DNA of 64,000 nt, taken from Streptomyces sp. NBC_01294. Its GTDB lineage: Bacteria > Actinomycetota > Actinomycetes > Streptomycetales > Streptomycetaceae. Below the pieces are notes generated by a model. The model did not search any database. It worked only from the letters and a program-made list of their open reading frames with translations, and was not told the DNA's origin. The stretch is taken from NCBI RefSeq assembly GCF_035917235.1, contig NZ_CP108423.1:682001-746000 (forward strand), in the 5' to 3' direction. Positions 53,657 to 61,187 of this stretch are shown here, in pieces (the stretch's first letter is position 1; each line of letters opens with the position of its first letter). Made by a program: the position numbers and the translations under genes.

Positions 53657-54055
53657 TTAAGTCCGTTTCTGGTAGCGGCCTCGTCCGGGTTGGGTGAGGA
53701 AGCCTTGGCGGGTGAGTCGTCCGAGGCGGCTGCGGGTGATGTTGACGGATGCTTCGTCGGTGGGCATGTCGAGGAGTTCGTGCAGGTCGCGGGCCCGGAA
53801 CGCCTGGTCGGGGTGCTGGTTGAAGGCGTCGACGATGGTCTGGTAGGCGGTGCTCGACTCGGGCGGATCGGGTTCGGTGCCGGTAGGTGCGAGTTCGGTG
53901 ATGACCTTGCGGGTGGTGGCGAGGTCCGCGAGGCGAGCTTCGGTCTCGGTGAGGGCGGCGGTGAAGTGCGCGATCTGATGGCGGAGTTCGTCTGCCCGGG
54001 CCGTGGCCTCGTTCTCCCGGAGGTGAAGGTCCACCAGGAGTTCGGTGATGTTCAC
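53657..54055 (-). CDS. IS-encoded accessory protein with coiled coil and winged helix
   Basis: 132 residues from GTG 54055, overlapping the transposase stop by four bases. Residues about 5-50 form a coiled coil (LRENEATARADELRHQIAHF); residues about 75-130 look like a winged helix (DQAFRARDLHELLDMPTDEA, LGRLTRQGFLTQPGRGRYQ). It may regulate transposition or be cargo; the function is unknown. Confidence 0.75.
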   Translation of the reverse strand: MNITELLVDLHLRENEATARADELRHQIAHFTAALTETEARLADLATTRKVITELAPTGTEPDPPESSTAYQTIVDAFNQHPDQAFRARDLHELLDMPTDEASVNITRSRLGRLTRQGFLTQPGRGRYQKRT

Positions 54056-54903
54056 GCGGCCAGCCCGATGGTGTCGCGCCAGGTCGGCGTGGGTGTGGTG
54101 AGGCGGCGGGCCATGTTGGCGGTGGAGGCCCAGTAGACGCGTGAGGCGGAGGTGTCGGGCCGGTGGTCGTACTCACGGGTCAGGCGCCGGTGGAGCATCA
54201 GCGTGCCGTTCGTCTGCTCGACCACCCACCGCTTGGGCTGCGGGACGAACCCTTTGCCCTGGTCAGCGGGGTTGCGGCGGACGACCTCGACGCCGATGTC
54301 CAGCAGTGCGCCGTGAACGATGACCGCTTCCTTGAAGCCCTGGTCGACCAGGGCTTTCTCCAGGCGCATTCCGCACCGCTCGGCGGCCTGGTCGAGCAGG
54401 GCGATGCCGGCGGCGTTGTCGTGCGCCGAGGCGGCCATGACGACGACGCCGATGATCAGCCCCAGCACGTCGACGGCCAGTCCCCGCTTGCGTCCCGAGA
54501 CCTTCTTGTTCGCGTCCAGCCCGGTCGTGGTCCGGGGGACACCCGCCGCAGCGCGGACGGACTGGGTGTCGATGATCACGAGGGACGGGTCCTCTAATCG
54601 GCGGGCTTTCTCCCTGACCTGGCAGCGAAGGAGTTCCTGAATCCGCTGGTCGAGCCCGTCCTCGCGCCACAACCTGAAGTAGTAGAACACCGCCGACCAG
54701 GCCGGCAGGTCATGCGGCAGCATGCGCCACTGACAGCCCGTCCGGTTCTGGTAGAAGATCGCGTTCACGACCTCCCTCAGGTCACAGGACCCGGGATCCC
54801 CGGTCGCCGACCGCGCCACCCGGCCCTGTTTCCAGGCCGTGATCATCGGCTCGATCAACGCCCACTGCCCATCCGACAAATCGCTGAGATACGGCTCTCT
54901 CAT
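54052..54903 (-). CDS. IS5-family transposase
   Basis: 283 residues from ATG 54903 (MREPYLSDLSDGQWALIEPM). The N-terminal domain has the IS5 motif FYQNRTGCQWRMLPHDLPAW. DDE residues: Asp in IIDTQSVRAAAG, Asp in LVDQGFKEAV, Glu in WVVEQTNGTLMLHRRL. The gene is complete and in frame. Confidence 0.93.
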   Translation of the reverse strand: MREPYLSDLSDGQWALIEPMITAWKQGRVARSATGDPGSCDLREVVNAIFYQNRTGCQWRMLPHDLPAWSAVFYYFRLWREDGLDQRIQELLRCQVREKARRLEDPSLVIIDTQSVRAAAGVPRTTTGLDANKKVSGRKRGLAVDVLGLIIGVVVMAASAHDNAAGIALLDQAAERCGMRLEKALVDQGFKEAVIVHGALLDIGVEVVRRNPADQGKGFVPQPKRWVVEQTNGTLMLHRRLTREYDHRPDTSASRVYWASTANMARRLTTPTPTWRDTIGLAA

Positions 54904-55009
54904 CACGCCCCGCATCTCAACATGGACATGCCCATCGAGCAGCCCGGACCGCGATCAGTACCACGATCGAGCGATCACGAACGAAGAGAAGTCGGACTTA
55001 ACGACCACT

Positions 55010-55172: not shown

Positions 55173-56300
55173 CTACTTCGCAGCCCCTGCCCGAACGGTG
55201 CCGGAGCCGATAGCACCCCGGAGGACATGGGCGATCTCCTCGGGTTTGAGGTCGATGCCGTCGATCCCCTCCACGGTCAGCGGGATCTCCTCCAGCGCAT
55301 ACTCACCACGGCCTTCTGCACTGAACTCGGGCCCGGTGCGATCCTCGAAGGACCAGGTGGCGATGCGGGCGAGGTAGAAGAGCTGACGTTCGTCGTCGGA
55401 CTCCATCGTGTGGAGGAGCCGGACGATGTCGGCCTTCCCCGCGATCTCCTCGTGGATCTCCCGGTGGAGAGCGGCCTCCCGCGACTCATCGCTGGGTTCG
55501 ACGCCGCCGCCGGGCAGTACCCAGTACACGGGGATGTCGGGCTTGGTTCGGCGGATGACCAGCATCGTGTCGTCAGCGGTGACGAGGACGGCTCGGACTC
55601 GTTCGATCATGTCGGTCTGTCTCCTTGCTTGTTGACGGTCCCAGTGCAGCAGCCGGCCACCGTCGACGTGGACGGATTGCCCAGTGATGAACGATGCGGA
55701 GGGGCCCACGAGGAACGCCACCAGGGCTGCAACATCTTCGGGTCGACCGCGGCGAGGGACGCACTGGCGCTTGATCTGGTCCTCCGGGCGCGCGAGGTGC
55801 TGGGCGGGGATGGCGTTCTCGGCCTCAACCTGGATGGCGCCGGGCATGACCGTGTTGACGCAGACCCCGTACGGGCCCAGTTCGCGGGCGAGGGAGCGGG
55901 TCAGTCCCAGTAGCCCGGCCTTCGCGGTGCTGTACGCGACCAGGTTCGTCCGGCCGACGCGGGCGTTGACGCTGCCGATGTTCACGATCCGCCCCCAGCG
56001 GCGTTCGATCATGCCGGGGGTCACCGCGTGGCAGGTGCGGTACTGGGCGGTGAGGTTCACGTCGAGGGAGTAGCTCCAGGCTGCCTCGTCGGTGTCCTTC
56101 CAGGGGACGCGGGGGTAGGAGCCGGCGTTGTTCACGAGGATGTCGATGGGGCCGATCTCGGCGCGGACGAGCTCGACCATGGTCTGGACGGCGCCGGGGT
56201 CGGTGAGGTCGGCGTTCGCCGCGATCCCGGGGCTGCCGTCTGGCTCGAAGGCGGCGAGGAGGGCATGGGCATATGTTGAGATCCCTTGGCCAAGGCCCAC
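55173..56300 (-). CDS. truncated SDR fused in frame to a NUDIX hydrolase
   Basis: 375 residues from GTG 56300 in one open frame. Residues about 25-218 are the central and C-terminal SDR fold ([22 protein letters not shown], Ser/Tyr/Lys catalytic set in [22 protein letters not shown]). The Rossmann GxxxGxG part at the N-terminus is missing or degenerate; a stop lies in frame at 56331. After a short basic linker a complete NUDIX domain begins at [20 protein letters not shown], with the NUDIX box from [10 protein letters not shown] to REIHEEI. The SDR half is probably inactive; the NUDIX half can work alone from an internal start near 55610. Confidence 0.7.
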
Positions 56301-56358: not shown

Positions 56359-57600
56359 ATGGGTGTGAGCGGGTACATCGAGGAGCAAGAGCGGATCGGA
56401 CAACGGGTCCGGCGTCAGCGGCTCTCGGTTGGGATGACTCAGGCCGACCTTGCCGCCGCACTGGGGCGGACGCAGGGGTGGGTATCGAAGCTGGAGAAGG
56501 GGCGGATCGAGCTGGACCGGGCCGGTCTGATCAACGCCGTGGCCGCCGCGCTCCACTGCCATCCGAACACCTTGATCGAGCGCCCGTACTCGGGCGGCGG
56601 CGCCGAAACCAAGTGGCAGGTCTCAGCGGCCTCCATCATCCGGGAACTGCGCCGGTACGACCTGGCTCCCGTCTTTGACGGCACCCCTCGGCCGTCCGAG
56701 GTGCTGTGGCACGACATGAAGCGCCTGCTCCGCCTGCGCGACGCCGCGGCGAACGCCGCCGTACTGAAGGAGCTGCCGGACATGCTGCGCGAGGCCCGGG
56801 CCCTCGCTGAGGCGTCCACTGGCCACGAACGTGAAGAGGCGTTCGCGATCTATGCGGTGGCCTGCAAGTTCGCCCACACAGCGGCCCATGCCCTCGGACA
56901 TCCCGAGCTGGTCGCCATGGCCTGCGAACGGGCCACCTGGTCCGCGCAGCTCTCAGGTGACCCGGTGATGCCGGCGATGGCGCTGTGGATGCGCATGTGG
57001 GACACGTGGGCGTCGGCCGACTGGGATGACGCCCTCGCCCTCGGGGACAAGGCCCTCGCCAGCATCGAAGCCGAGTACGAGGCCGGCGACCCTCTCGCCC
57101 TGCGTATGTGGGGCGCCCTGCACCTGCGGGCCGCGATCTCGTCCGCGCGCGGCGGGAACGCTGCTGGGTCGGATGAGCGGCTCGCGCTTGCCCGTACGGC
57201 GGGCGAGCGGGTCAACTCATACGTCGGGCCCGAGATCCACGACCGGCACTCGGTCACGTTCAGCCTCGGCAACGTCGTCATCCACGGCGTCAGCGCCGCC
57301 TTGGAGATGAGTGACCAGACGAAGGCGCTCCGGCTCAACCGCGAGGCGGACCCCGCGCACATCGCGGTTCTGCCGAACTCCCGGCTCGGTCACCACCACA
57401 TGGACCTTGCCCGCGCGTGGCTGTGGGACGGTAACCGCGACCAGGCCCTGACCGAACTGGAGACCGCCGAACGTATCGCTCCCCAACTGGTGCGCAATCA
57501 CCCTGTCGCTCGCGCTACTCTGCGGAAGATCATCTACGCGGAGCGGGCTGCTACGCGCCAGCGGCTGCGCGGCATGACCGGACGTTTTTCGCTGGACTGA
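56359..57600 (+). CDS. XRE-family regulator with TPR-like C-terminus
   Basis: 413 residues; ATG at 56359 (a GTG lies one codon before). HTH at about 10-65 (RQRLSVGMTQADLAAALGRT, then WVSKLEKGRIELDR). The rest is helical repeats of the streptomycete SARP/XRE-TPR kind (AIYAVACKFAHTAAHALGH, MDLARAWLWDGNRDQALTEL). Members sit next to small secondary-metabolite or RiPP genes and probably respond to a peptide or small molecule. It is likely the regulator of the RiPP cluster downstream. Confidence 0.85.
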   Translation: MGVSGYIEEQERIGQRVRRQRLSVGMTQADLAAALGRTQGWVSKLEKGRIELDRAGLINAVAAALHCHPNTLIERPYSGGGAETKWQVSAASIIRELRRYDLAPVFDGTPRPSEVLWHDMKRLLRLRDAAANAAVLKELPDMLREARALAEASTGHEREEAFAIYAVACKFAHTAAHALGHPELVAMACERATWSAQLSGDPVMPAMALWMRMWDTWASADWDDALALGDKALASIEAEYEAGDPLALRMWGALHLRAAISSARGGNAAGSDERLALARTAGERVNSYVGPEIHDRHSVTFSLGNVVIHGVSAALEMSDQTKALRLNREADPAHIAVLPNSRLGHHHMDLARAWLWDGNRDQALTELETAERIAPQLVRNHPVARATLRKIIYAERAATRQRLRGMTGRFSLD

Positions 57601-57658
57601 CCTGGGGACATTCCCCGGATTCATATTGCCCCGTAGCGGAGCGCATACGTTCCGCTAC

Positions 57659-58063
57659 ATGACCTCGACGCGTCGCACTGACCATGACCGCGTACGACAG
57701 CAGGCGGACGACCCTGATCCCCGCTGGCCGCTGCGCGGCGACCTTGCGCACGACACCGCAACCTCCCGCACGGGTGTGGTCATAGACGTCCCCGGGGACA
57801 CCGGCACCACGGTCTACCGCCTGTGTCCCGAGGGCGGCGGCGAGGACGGCTGGAACGCCTCGCTCAACACCCTCGTGCCCGCGGAGGACGCCCCCGTTCC
57901 GCTCCCCCGCAGGGCCCCCGGCGGCAGGATGCAGCACGAGCCCGAATACGCCCCGTGGGACGACCCGTTCGGCAGTCCGGACCCCAGTCCCTCCCTGAGG
58001 GTCCGCGCCGAGCGCGGCATGGAGCGATTCAGGAAGTCGGCGGGCACGGACGGTGCGGCATGA
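57659..58063 (+). CDS. hypothetical protein
   Basis: 134 residues from ATG 57659, 58 bp after the XRE gene. The first half is a small beta-rich domain (HDTATSRTGVVIDVPGDTGT, TVYRLCPEGGGEDGW); the second half is Pro-rich and disordered. No family is recognised. Its TGA overlaps the next start (ATGA). Confidence 0.65.
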   Translation: MTSTRRTDHDRVRQQADDPDPRWPLRGDLAHDTATSRTGVVIDVPGDTGTTVYRLCPEGGGEDGWNASLNTLVPAEDAPVPLPRRAPGGRMQHEPEYAPWDDPFGSPDPSPSLRVRAERGMERFRKSAGTDGAA

Positions 58064-58269
58064 GCGGGCGGCCCTCCTGGCTCTACGAGGGCGCCCGCGT
58101 ACTGGACCCCGCCGAAGACCGCGAGGGGATCGTCCAGTTCATCGGCGACTGGGAAGACCCCAAGACCCGCCGCTTCATCCCCGAAGCCGTCTTCCTGCGC
58201 CCCGAGGGCGGCGGCGTCGAATGGGTCGTCGCCGACCACCAGGCCCTGCGCCAGGCCGACCCCCGCTGA
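58060..58269 (+). CDS. small hypothetical protein
   Basis: 69 residues: MSGRPSWLYEGARVLDPAED, REGIVQFIGDWEDP, VFLRPEGGGVEWVVADHQAL. A compact beta-barrel-like protein of a type frequent beside XRE-TPR genes in streptomycetes. The role is unknown. It lies 85 bp before the radical SAM gene and is probably in the same operon. Confidence 0.7.
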   Translation: MSGRPSWLYEGARVLDPAEDREGIVQFIGDWEDPKTRRFIPEAVFLRPEGGGVEWVVADHQALRQADPR

Positions 58270-58354
58270 CCCCACCCACGCTCCGCCCGGTGCCTCCAAC
58301 AGCACCACTAGCCGAGGCGGGACACCCCGCCCGGACCCAATCGAGAGGAGCACG

Positions 58355-59473
58355 ATGCAGAGTGCATTACGGCTCGCGGCCAGGCCTCGGTCTGTGATCA
58401 TGCAGCCCACCACGAAGTGCCTGCCCATGGACTGCACCTACTGCTACTTGCCGTTCCGCAAGATGAACCACTTGATGCCGGTGACGGTTGCCGAGGCTGT
58501 GGCCGCGTCCGTCAACCCGTGGGCAGCTCACGATCCGGCGTTCGAAGTCGTGTGGCACGGTGGAGAGCCGCTGGCCACGGGCCGTGAGCACTTGGCCGCG
58601 CTCATGTCCCCTTTCGAGGGCGTGAAGCACAGCATCCAGACGAACGCGGCTCTGGTGGATGACGCCTGGTGCGAGTTCCTGCTGGAGCACGAGGTCCACG
58701 TCGGCGTCAGCATCGACGGCCCCGAGGACATGAACACCCACCGCGTCACCCTCGCCGGCCACCCCGGATTCCGCGTCACCATGCGAGGCATCGAGCGCCT
58801 GCGCCGCCACGGCATCCCGTTCTCCGCCATCGCGGTCGTCTCCGACCCGGCCCCCGAGAACGCGGCCCGCTTCTACGACTTCTTCGCCGAGCTGGGCGTC
58901 ACCACCCTCGGCGTCAACGTCGAAGAGGAAGAAGGGGTCAACCGCGGAGCCAAGGAGTCCGACCCCGTGCGCACGACCGAGTTCTGGGCCGCCCTCGCGG
59001 ACGCCTGGCGGGCCAATCCGGTGATCCGGCTGAGGGAGATCCAGCGGGTGCTCAACTTCGCCGGTGCCGTTCTCGGCAGCCACGACACCGCCCCCACGCC
59101 CACCTCTGCACCTTGGGATCCGATGCCCACCGTCGCCTACGACGGCGGGGTGATCATGCTCTCCCCAGAGCTGGCGGGGTTCACCGACGCCCGGTTCGGC
59201 GACTTCACCACCGGCAACGTACTCAAGGACGGCCTGGACGTCCTCGTGGCCGAGGCCGAGGAACGCACCCCCTGGATCACCGAGTTCTGGCAGGGCGTCG
59301 ACGCGTGCCGCGACACCTGCCCCGCCTTCGCCTTCTGCGGGGGTGCCCACGCCGCGAACCGGTACTTCGAGCACGCCGGCCGGTTCGACGGGACCAGGAC
59401 CCGGTACTGCACCACCGCCAAAATCGCCCTACTCGAAGGAGTCACGCGACATGTCCATTCACACGCCCACTGA
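58355..59473 (+). CDS. radical SAM/SPASM peptide maturase (cyclophane-type)
   Basis: 372 residues; ATG at 58355 with GAGAGGAGCACG. The [4Fe-4S] motif is TKCLPMDCTYCYLP with Cys22, Cys27 and Cys30, a CX4CX2C spacing in place of the usual CX3CX2C. Then VVWHGGEPLATG, SIQTNAALV, VGVSIDGPEDMN (SAM-fold motifs) and a SPASM-like C-terminus with Cys residues in DACRDTCPAFAFCGG and RTRYC. Such enzymes join aromatic side chains to nearby residues in a precursor peptide. The precursor gene overlaps its 3' end, and its sequence fits cyclophane formation. The family is likely the multiple-cyclophane actinobacterial type. Confidence 0.85.
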   Translation: MQSALRLAARPRSVIMQPTTKCLPMDCTYCYLPFRKMNHLMPVTVAEAVAASVNPWAAHDPAFEVVWHGGEPLATGREHLAALMSPFEGVKHSIQTNAALVDDAWCEFLLEHEVHVGVSIDGPEDMNTHRVTLAGHPGFRVTMRGIERLRRHGIPFSAIAVVSDPAPENAARFYDFFAELGVTTLGVNVEEEEGVNRGAKESDPVRTTEFWAALADAWRANPVIRLREIQRVLNFAGAVLGSHDTAPTPTSAPWDPMPTVAYDGGVIMLSPELAGFTDARFGDFTTGNVLKDGLDVLVAEAEERTPWITEFWQGVDACRDTCPAFAFCGGAHAANRYFEHAGRFDGTRTRYCTTAKIALLEGVTRHVHSHAH

Positions 59474-59711
59474 CGCCGCCACCCTCGTGATGGACTCGGC
59501 GGAGGGATTCGAGTCCCTCCTGGAGGCCGCTGGCACCGGCGCCGTCGCCCGCTGGGAGAACTCCTGGACCAACGCCACCTGGAGCAACCAGCCCACCTCC
59601 GAAGCCGCGCACGCCAAGCCCCTCGCCGCGTTCGACAACCGCCCGACCTGGGACAACCCCACGGCCACCTTCGACAACCGGCCCACCTGGGACAACTGGA
59701 AGAACAAGTAG
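59451..59711 (+). CDS. RiPP precursor peptide with aromatic-X-Asn repeats
   Basis: 86 residues; ATG at 59451 with CGAAGGAG upstream, overlapping the maturase gene by 23 bases. Leader about 1-32 (TLVMDSAEGFESLLEAAGTG). The core has eight aromatic-X-Asn units: WEN 35, WTN 39, WSN 44, FDN 61, WDN 67, FDN 74, WDN 80 and WKN 83. Residues 61-73 and 74-86 are near-identical 13-mers (FDNRPTWDNPTAT and FDNRPTWDNWKNK). The aromatic-X-Asn pattern is the substrate of three-residue cyclophane-forming radical SAM enzymes. Confidence 0.85.
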   Translation: MSIHTPTDAATLVMDSAEGFESLLEAAGTGAVARWENSWTNATWSNQPTSEAAHAKPLAAFDNRPTWDNPTATFDNRPTWDNWKNK

Positions 59712-59775
59712 CAGCCGCCGACATCGGGACGGTCCCGCCGCGCGGGGCCGCCCCGCCCCAACGACAAGGAGCACC

Positions 59776-60450
59776 ATGGCCATCCGAACCTTCGGCCACG
59801 CCACGATCACCCTGCCTGAGCTGGACGAGCCCGGCCTCTACCTGAGCAACGTCGACAGCCTCGACAGCTCCCGTGGCACAGTCCAGGACTTCGTGTACGG
59901 GGATGCCGATCTCCGATCGCTCGACCTCACGGACACCCAACTCGTCACCGGCCGGCTCTCGGGCATCCGCGCGAAGCGTCTCGAGTTCGAGGCGGTCAAC
60001 CTCCACGGCGTCGAGATCAGCGACAGCGACCTCGGCACCGCGCGCTGGACCGAGAGCAAGCTGACCCGAGTCCACTTCCGAGACTGCAAGCTGATGGGCG
60101 CCGCTCTGGACGGCCTGGTGCTCGACGACGTGCTGTTCGAAAGCTGCAAGCTCGACTTCGCCACGTTCGAGAAGGTCCGCGCCACCGGCCCCGTGGCCTT
60201 CATCGGCTGCGTCCTCACAGAGGCCACATTCGCGGACTGCGACCTGTCCGACACCGTGTTCACCGACTGCACGCTCCGGCGCGCCGAATTCGGCACGGGC
60301 CGCTATCGCAACACCGACCTGCGCGAGAACGATCTGTCGGCCATCCGAGGGGTCGCGAACCTCGCCAAGGTCCGCATCGACCCCGGCCAGCAGTCCGACC
60401 TCGCCGAAGCCCTCGTGAACGAACTCAACATCACCATCGGGGACGACTGA
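59776..60450 (+). CDS. pentapeptide-repeat protein
   Basis: 224 residues, ATG at 59776 after AAGGAGCACC. From about residue 40 to 185 the sequence follows the five-residue pulse with central Leu/Phe (LDLTD, VHFRD, CKLMG, VLFES, CKLDF, ATFAD, CDLSD, TVFTD, CTLRR). The fold is a right-handed beta-helix; some members imitate DNA and protect gyrase. In this operon it could be an immunity or scaffold protein for the RiPP; that is inference. Confidence 0.8.
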   Translation: MAIRTFGHATITLPELDEPGLYLSNVDSLDSSRGTVQDFVYGDADLRSLDLTDTQLVTGRLSGIRAKRLEFEAVNLHGVEISDSDLGTARWTESKLTRVHFRDCKLMGAALDGLVLDDVLFESCKLDFATFEKVRATGPVAFIGCVLTEATFADCDLSDTVFTDCTLRRAEFGTGRYRNTDLRENDLSAIRGVANLAKVRIDPGQQSDLAEALVNELNITIGDD

Positions 60451-60467
60451 CCCTGAAGGGAGGCCCC

Positions 60468-61187
60468 GTGCCCCTGCACATCGCCTACGGCGACCCATCC
60501 GCCCTCCGCGCCCGCTGCGAAATCGCCACCGTCCGGACCACTCGCCCCGAGGAGACCGCCTACGAGCCCGGCGCGATCATCCCCGCCGGGCAGTGGCGCC
60601 CCATGACCAAGGTGGACGTCAAGGCCGTCTCAGCCCCTCGCCGGCCCCTGGACAGCACACTCGTGGAGATCGTCCGACCCACGTATCAAGTAGGACTCCT
60701 CCTCGAAGACCTCACCGGCCCGCTGGGCGATCCGGACGCGGTGTACCTCGGTCAAGCCCTGGCCAAGCCCGGCATGACCACGACCACCGACAACTACGAG
60801 GACGGCCGGCTGATCGGGCTGCACCTCGACAACTGGGACAAGCTCCAGTACACCGACAAGCACACCGGACGCCGCAGACTCTGCCTCAACCTCGGCCCCG
60901 GAACCCGGTACATCATCTTCGGCACCATCGACGCCCAAGCGGTCTGCCGAGCCGTCCATCCCAACGACCACGCCCATCGCTTCCCGCACACCCAGGACTA
61001 CCGCGACTACGTCGCCAGCGGCCGCCCCATCCGCATCATCCGCACACGCCTGGCCCCCGGCGAGGGCTACGTGGCTCCCACCGAATACTTGCTGCACGAC
61101 GGCTCCACCGAGGCCCAAGACCGGCCCTCGGCAGCCGCGTTTTGGCTCGGGCAGTGGCCCCGCGGCATCCTGCCGTCCCTCACCTGA
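60468..61187 (+). CDS. putative Fe(II)/2-oxoglutarate-dependent oxygenase
   Basis: 239 residues from GTG 60468 (GAAGGGAGG upstream). The double-stranded beta-helix pattern is visible: His119-x-Asp121 in LIGLHLDNWD, a distal His210 in YLLHDGS, and Arg220-Pro-Ser222 ten residues later, matching the HxD...H...RxS iron and co-substrate signature. No closer family name is recalled. It ends the RiPP operon and may hydroxylate the cyclised peptide. Confidence 0.65.
   Translation: MPLHIAYGDPSALRARCEIATVRTTRPEETAYEPGAIIPAGQWRPMTKVDVKAVSAPRRPLDSTLVEIVRPTYQVGLLLEDLTGPLGDPDAVYLGQALAKPGMTTTTDNYEDGRLIGLHLDNWDKLQYTDKHTGRRRLCLNLGPGTRYIIFGTIDAQAVCRAVHPNDHAHRFPHTQDYRDYVASGRPIRIIRTRLAPGEGYVAPTEYLLHDGSTEAQDRPSAAAFWLGQWPRGILPSLT

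Follow-up and report, generated by a model that had tools for sequence, protein, structure and literature searches.

A stretch of 64,000 nucleotides from Streptomyces sp. NBC_01294 (contig NZ_CP108423.1, positions 682,001 to 746,000 of the forward strand), here called the window and numbered from its first letter, contains a conserved four-gene operon on the plus strand (58355-61187). The genes encode, in order, a radical SAM/SPASM maturase of the AmcB family that is predicted to form cyclophanes (58355-59473), an 86-amino-acid precursor peptide of the AmcA family (59451-59711), a pentapeptide-repeat protein (PRP; 59776-60450), and a stand-alone oxygenase (60468-61187). The maturase and precursor genes overlap, as an earlier reading of the letters of this DNA (the original prediction) had described; the overlap measures 23 bases, and the sequence AAGGAG precedes the precursor ATG. 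We hold with moderate confidence that this is an AmcA/AmcB-type operon for a triceptide, in which the oxygenase would tailor the peptide and the PRP would protect the producer.

The maturase and precursor belong to the AmcA/AmcB family

The maturase scored 446.3 bits against the NCBIfam AmcB model (NF041718), above the cut-off of 425, and 53.3 bits against PF04055, and it scored 230.3 bits against the GrrM/OscB model TIGR04261, under the cut-off of 310. The precursor scored 73.6 bits against the AmcA model NF041721 (cut-off, 40). A search for homologous precursor and maturase families, which the original prediction had proposed, matched AmcA/AmcB and returned, from one homology search, 87 precursor homologues (88 sequences with that of the window); by a hand count, 59 of the homologues are named AmcA at NCBI and 4 more at UniRef. 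Aromatic-X-residue units here adjoin a SPASM-type radical SAM enzyme, which is the arrangement that marks a triceptide system. Judged by these curated models, the window core is a member of the known family AmcA/AmcB, described as "multiple cyclophane-containing RiPP" (ribosomally synthesized and post-translationally modified peptide), and we are highly confident that the operon product would be a cyclophane RiPP.

All eight of the aromatic-X-Asn units that had been predicted, from WEN to WKN, were found between residues 35 and 85 of the precursor (WEN at 35-37, WTN at 39-41, WSN at 44-46, FDN at 61-63, WDN at 67-69, FDN at 74-76, WDN at 80-82, and WKN at 83-85). These units take up 8 of its 8 Asn residues and 8 of its 9 Trp, Phe, or Tyr residues, and shuffled precursors had a mean of 1.02 such motifs, with none of 100,000 reaching eight. 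The motifs WEN, WTN, and WSN, which are variable among the homologues, are encoded at 59553-59588, and the two expected 13-residue repeats follow at 59631-59669 (FDNRPTWDN and a 4-residue linker) and 59670-59708 (FDNRPTWDN and the terminal WKNK). At least one exact copy of FDNRPTWDN was present in all 88 precursors. Because the search gathers its candidates by short shared words, it is biased towards sequences of the FDNRPTWDN type, and two precursors from outside it deviated, that of L113 with FDNRPTWVN and FDNKPTWDN and that of a Saccharothrix locus (L014) with FNNDPTWDN and FDNRPTWDD. The spacer between nonapeptide units measured 4 residues in 81 of 84 cases and 5 residues in the other 3.

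The number of aromatic-X-Asn motifs ranged from three to eight, with the window precursor at the maximum, and this range bears on how many rings are made. It is quite possible that there are fewer than eight, formed in the FDNRPTWDN region and at the terminal Trp only, and that WEN, WTN, and WSN are a variable extension or a decaying leader. The nonapeptide is universal among the 88 while 13 of them have three motifs only, and the N-terminal places are mutated in some homologues (for example, GENTGTN in P0123), as this reading would expect. Conversely, eight motifs are kept in 17 of the 88 precursors, and the W-x-N spacing stays constant while x varies, both of which speak for rings at the N-terminal motifs as well. 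As a separate observation, the last two units were seen to change together in this set (P0121-P0207 and the window), W-D-D occurring with W-x-K and W-D-N mostly with W-x-N. When the last W-D-N was changed to W-D-D (25 precursors), the terminal unit was W-x-K in every case; in the 63 precursors that retained W-D-N, the terminal unit ended in N in 52, in K in 8, and in Q in 1 and was absent in 2.

The operon recurs across Streptomyces

When 392 Streptomyces genomes were surveyed at the AmcB cut-off, with the best 5 candidates per genome scored, a maturase over the cut-off was found in at least 27 genomes, at no fewer than 29 places. The sample of 29 places consisted of the window and 28 fetched loci, one of which (from genome G054) is near-identical to the window. 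The FDN-type precursor, the PRP, and the oxygenase were all present at 17 of these (16 and the window), and the precursor and PRP were present without an intact oxygenase at 2 more (L095 and L098). At the other 10 places, which carry different small open reading frames (ORFs) next to the maturase, the precursor, PRP, and oxygenase were all absent by tblastn. The FDN-type precursor was therefore found with the PRP at 19 of the 29 places versus neither at 10 (Fisher test, 5e-8, uncorrected for kinship); because the genomes are related, the counts over the 29 places are not independent. Among the named genomes, L001-L005, L008, L009, and L016 carry all four genes, and L006 and L007 are without the oxygenase. 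Neither the PRP nor the oxygenase was detected by tblastn in the Micromonosporaceae relatives L010-L013 and L015, which share a different conserved core, CAWNHFENIPTFYNWNNRPR or near it.

The original prediction suggested that the full gene set might be undescribed. This was only partly right, in that AmcA and AmcB models exist in NCBIfam and the operon recurs across Streptomyces; with a known family as its core and an operon that is not uncommon, the find is ordinary in kind. What the prediction said of a multicyclophane RiPP and an iron- and 2-oxoglutarate-dependent (Fe/2OG) oxygenase is supported by the curated models, the conservation of the operon, and the similarity to MicC described below. 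Such clusters seem to undergo frequent loss. We also noted truncated maturases in three other actinomycete genomes, which retain the first 89 (L021:8001-8267), 33 (L023:8001-8099), and approximately 43 (L024:8001-8126) codons, followed by unrelated DNA; from the XRE gene upstream of the operon up to the maturase break, L021 is near-identical to the window.

The stand-alone oxygenase resembles MicC

The last gene of the operon (60468-61187, plus strand) encodes a protein of 239 amino acids that had no Pfam or NCBIfam match and that matched MicC (PDB 9vkm) by phmmer at 1.2e-9. Residues H119, D121, and H210, which make up an H-x-D...H triad, were invariant in 74 oxygenase sequences, and the same ligands were kept in MicC and in 7 of 7 distant relatives; no HExxH motif was present. 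A structure model of the protein had a predicted local distance difference test score (pLDDT) of 92.1, and its fold matches were weak and nearly all to Fe/2OG enzymes. MicC structure 9vkm was not among the matches listed in the fold searches, which says nothing about relatedness. From the phmmer match and the ligands, the protein is probably an Fe(II)/2-oxoglutarate enzyme related to MicC, so that the predicted order of a pentapeptide-repeat gene followed by a putative Fe/2OG oxygenase gene held. We consider it likely that this enzyme would act on the peptide of its own operon.

Distant relatives of the oxygenase were examined at seven loci, an eighth place (in G101) lying outside the sample. 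In 6 of the 7, they adjoin a maturase that belongs to the same superfamily but scores under the AmcB cut-off, with a gap of approximately 0.3 kb or less in 5 of those. A motif scan for precursors at L115, L116, L119, L121-L123, and L126 gave no convincing candidate; one Trp-rich ORF was noticed in L119. In a scan of 396 genomes across the phylum, with the best 7 candidates per genome scored, oxygenase matches at 1e-10 were obtained in at least 2 genomes, of one genus and with the window's own included, and the protein matches include Kitasatospora. In-frame TGA codons in the oxygenases of G131 and G353 were considered as possible recoding and rejected, TGA there being the ordinary C-terminal stop codon.

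The oxygenase might instead catalyze a reaction other than hydroxylation on the precursor, for example, a desaturation or an additional cross-link, which we regard as unlikely. One 2OG enzyme is reported to cross-link Cys and Tyr in a RiPP (cited in PMC12636437), but the characterized 2OG enzymes of RiPP pathways are described as largely limited to hydroxylation (PMC12636437). Moreover, Cys occurs in just 8 and Tyr in 18 of the 88 precursors, and because of this rarity, a Cys-Tyr cross-link is unlikely here. Comparing precursors with and without an accompanying oxygenase for the site of a hydroxylation revealed nothing, the core being identical; since the same core occurs in both groups, the site is not readable by covariation.

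The modelled PRP fold resembles those of known protectors

The PRP gene (59776-60450, plus strand) encodes 224 amino acids and matched PF13599 at 71.6 bits; from this match, a fold model, and its persistence without the cluster, it is a probable self-protection gene. The original prediction had given it no role. The AlphaFold model (pLDDT, 92.9) is a right-handed quadrilateral solenoid with a C-terminal helix, a description that HetL fits as well and that is therefore unspecific. Its nearest folds were a Clostridium botulinum PRP, EfsQnr, AlbG, MfpA, and QnrB1, and the protein is acidic (calculated pI, 4.56; charge, -15). It scored 38.5 bits against the Qnr model NF033086 (cut-off, 240) and 25.7 bits against the MfpA model NF000349 (cut-off, 360). 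The understood PRPs of antibiotic clusters are described as shielding topoisomerases, with AlbG (albicidin) and CysO (cystobactamid) as examples (PMC9886550), and McbG provides immunity to microcin B17, a RiPP that inhibits gyrase (PMC9886550). New topoisomerase inhibitors have been found by using cluster PRPs as markers (PMC9231227). HetL, however, is a PRP that guards a very different kind of target against a peptide (PMC7476756). Because cluster PRPs shield topoisomerases but HetL has another target, we take it as reasonably probable that the window PRP is a self-protection protein, and only tentatively that a topoisomerase would be the target of the product.

A PRP that shields a non-topoisomerase target in the manner of HetL, or that binds the peptide itself, would still be a means of self-protection, and the target of the product would then differ. 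We think this rather doubtful, since, among natural proteins of known function, the topoisomerase protectors EfsQnr and AlbG scored best, followed by MfpA and QnrB1, although by a small margin, and since McbG sets a precedent for a PRP that gives toxin immunity within a RiPP cluster (PMC9886550).

PRPs persist at loci without an intact maturase

The most informative feature of this family is the persistence of the PRP without the cluster. Uninterrupted PRPs of 214-224 residues were found at ten loci without an intact maturase (L125, L127, L131-L135, and L138-L140), and an intact oxygenase was found alone at one maturase-less locus (L124; ten versus one, sign test, 0.012). At L127 and L138, ruined remnants of the precursor and oxygenase lie next to the PRP, and at L125, the PRP stands alongside a broken oxygenase. 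The orphans are scattered on the PRP tree, on which the orphan label requires 9 changes, at least 6 of them on well-supported branches. The ratio of nonsynonymous to synonymous substitution rates (dN/dS) was 0.17-0.60 between orphan PRPs and the nearest cluster-borne PRPs and 0.16-0.60 between cluster-borne pairs. This pattern fits a self-protection gene; the contrast with the oxygenase fades under equal thresholds. A gene like that for protein-isoaspartate methyltransferase (PCMT) was seen directly upstream of two orphan PRPs (L132:7184-8332 and L138:7875-9164); PCMT homologues are also found at some of the other loci and were taken as chance or regional neighbors.

The same loci also bear on whether the PRP, in place of protecting the producer, assists biosynthesis as a scaffold or chaperone of the maturase or the oxygenase. 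The position of its gene between those for the precursor and the oxygenase, and its presence with the FDN-type precursor at 19 of 19 Streptomyces places over the cut-off, would suit such a role. The ten uninterrupted PRPs without an intact maturase argue against it, as do the retention of the PRP where the oxygenase has been lost (L006, L007, L095, and L098) and its absence from the 10 other places with a maturase of the same family, and we judge this explanation improbable.

Several observations weigh against a triceptide operon with oxygenase tailoring and a protective PRP. The match of the PRP fold to HetL and to designed solenoids is nearly as good as that to MfpA and QnrB1, so the fold is no proof of a topoisomerase target. 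In pairs with a proportion of nonsynonymous differences (pN) of <0.1, the dN/dS of the orphans (0.17-0.35) was slightly above that of cluster-borne PRPs (0.16-0.30), and selection on the orphans may for this reason be somewhat relaxed. The PRP match was likewise incomplete at 7 of the 18 loci that lack an intact maturase but show a trace of the PRP. L139 and L140 are extra copies in G121, a genome that also has a full cluster, and the L135 PRP, a distant one (53%), is encoded on a short contig, 1.3 kb from its start. The search thresholds were unequal (1e-20 for the PRP and 1e-3 for the oxygenase), and by hand counts, the PRP was intact at 11 of 18 maturase-less loci versus 2 of 11 for the oxygenase (Fisher test, 0.052); with 1e-20 for both, these became 11 of 18 versus 2 of 7 (Fisher test, 0.20). 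L006, L007, L095, and L098 are without an intact oxygenase, yet their precursor core is unchanged, and L014 is without the oxygenase and combines an FDN-type precursor with only a distant PRP (28%), encoded on the opposite strand. Finally, no conserved exporter or protease was recognized among the neighbor groups present within 6-7 kb in at least 4 of the 31 PRP-bearing loci compared, these groups being judged from sequence start and position with no family search; such a gene may sit elsewhere in the genome. As an observation on G121 itself, the full cluster (L094) and the two diverged PRP copies (L139 and L140) lie apart in that genome.

Neighboring genes in the window

An XRE/TPR-type regulator with a PF13560 match lies upstream of the operon (56359-57600, plus strand). 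The original prediction noted such a regulator upstream; it is present, but it is not a conserved part, its homologue group being upstream in 9 of the 31 PRP-bearing loci. Two small plus-strand genes that the prediction did not mention, between the regulator and the maturase (57659-58063 and 58060-58269), had zero Pfam or NCBIfam matches, and their homologue groups were found in 6 and 7 of the 31 loci, respectively. As their homologues occur in so few loci, all three were excluded from the core of the system and taken as neighbors only. Farther upstream, an ORF at 55173-56300 (minus strand) fuses an N-terminally truncated short-chain dehydrogenase to a NUDIX domain, and an IS5-family transposase (54052-54915, minus strand) lies approximately 3.4 kb upstream of the operon.

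Proposed pathway and significance

In the pathway we propose, AmcB would abstract a hydrogen from the beta-carbon of Asn, the third residue of each aromatic-X-Asn unit, and the resulting radical would add to the aromatic ring, giving a row of three-residue cyclophanes; closure would be most certain for the conserved FDNRPTWDN units. The oxygenase would then hydroxylate the cyclized peptide; by analogy with ChlH, our guess is that it acts on the Asp in the middle of each F-D-N and W-D-N unit, at the beta-carbon. A protease and an exporter encoded elsewhere would complete and release the peptide. The PRP would shield the DNA gyrase or topoisomerase IV of the producer, as McbG does against microcin B17, which is, because of the PRP fold, its most likely mode of action, and the product would then be a topoisomerase-directed RiPP. 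The complete proposal, that of a topoisomerase-directed RiPP with tandem cyclized FDNRPTWDN units, beta-hydroxylation by a MicC-like 2OG enzyme, and a McbG-like PRP that persists in former producers after the cluster is gone, is put forward as a speculative one.

Among RiPPs with three-residue rings, activity is described as well understood only for dynobactin and darobactin (PMC12026744). The orphan PRPs and the MicC-like oxygenase together raise a testable idea on the role of the Amc peptides, one not found in the open-licence literature searched. In that literature, we likewise recognized no paper on this operon, on MicC, or on cyclophane RiPP clusters that contain a PRP, which is a weak negative; PMC10311463, which pairs AMCB with a cyclophane, is not relevant, AMCB there denoting a chemical group. 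If the proposal is true, it would define a new chemical class of gyrase or topoisomerase inhibitor and assign a function to the Amc RiPPs, and two unrelated kinds of 2OG enzyme (HExxH and H-x-D...H) would share one late step in the tailoring of cyclophane peptides. Should the PRP be an immunity protein, it would directly suggest a testable target for a RiPP family widespread in Streptomyces.

Comparison with known systems

The window core shows no difference from AmcA/AmcB (NF041721 and NF041718), both proteins being above the cut-offs. AmcA/AmcB probably corresponds to the group treated by Phan and Morinaka 2022, whose paper is the main one on actinobacterial triceptide maturases. For the oxygenase, the nearest known protein is MicC, an alpha-ketoglutarate-dependent non-heme iron oxygenase that matches residues 99-223, including all metal ligands, N141, and R147, over an alignment of only approximately 125 residues; its pathway was not found in the open-licence literature searched. 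In another system, a multicyclophane RiPP made by the synthase ChlB is then hydroxylated at Asp and His by the 2OG-dependent beta-hydroxylase ChlH (PMC12636437). The fold of ChlH is of the zincin-like HExxH type, whereas the window oxygenase is a separate H-x-D...H protein. Among the topoisomerase-protecting PRPs (McbG, AlbG, MfpA, and Qnr), the modelled fold of the window PRP resembles those of AlbG, MfpA, and QnrB1, and the protein falls far below the curated Qnr and MfpA cut-offs. The triceptide enzymes XncB, OscB/GrrM, and MscB are, like the window maturase, SPASM-type radical SAM enzymes that act on aromatic-X-residue units. Three-residue cyclophanes are formed by hydrogen abstraction followed by radical addition to the ring (PMC12026744), and OscB and XncB join Trp or Phe to the C-beta of Asn (PMC11002830). 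In contrast to the systems of XncB, OscB/GrrM, and MscB, the window family has up to eight units per precursor and carries a PRP in its operon.

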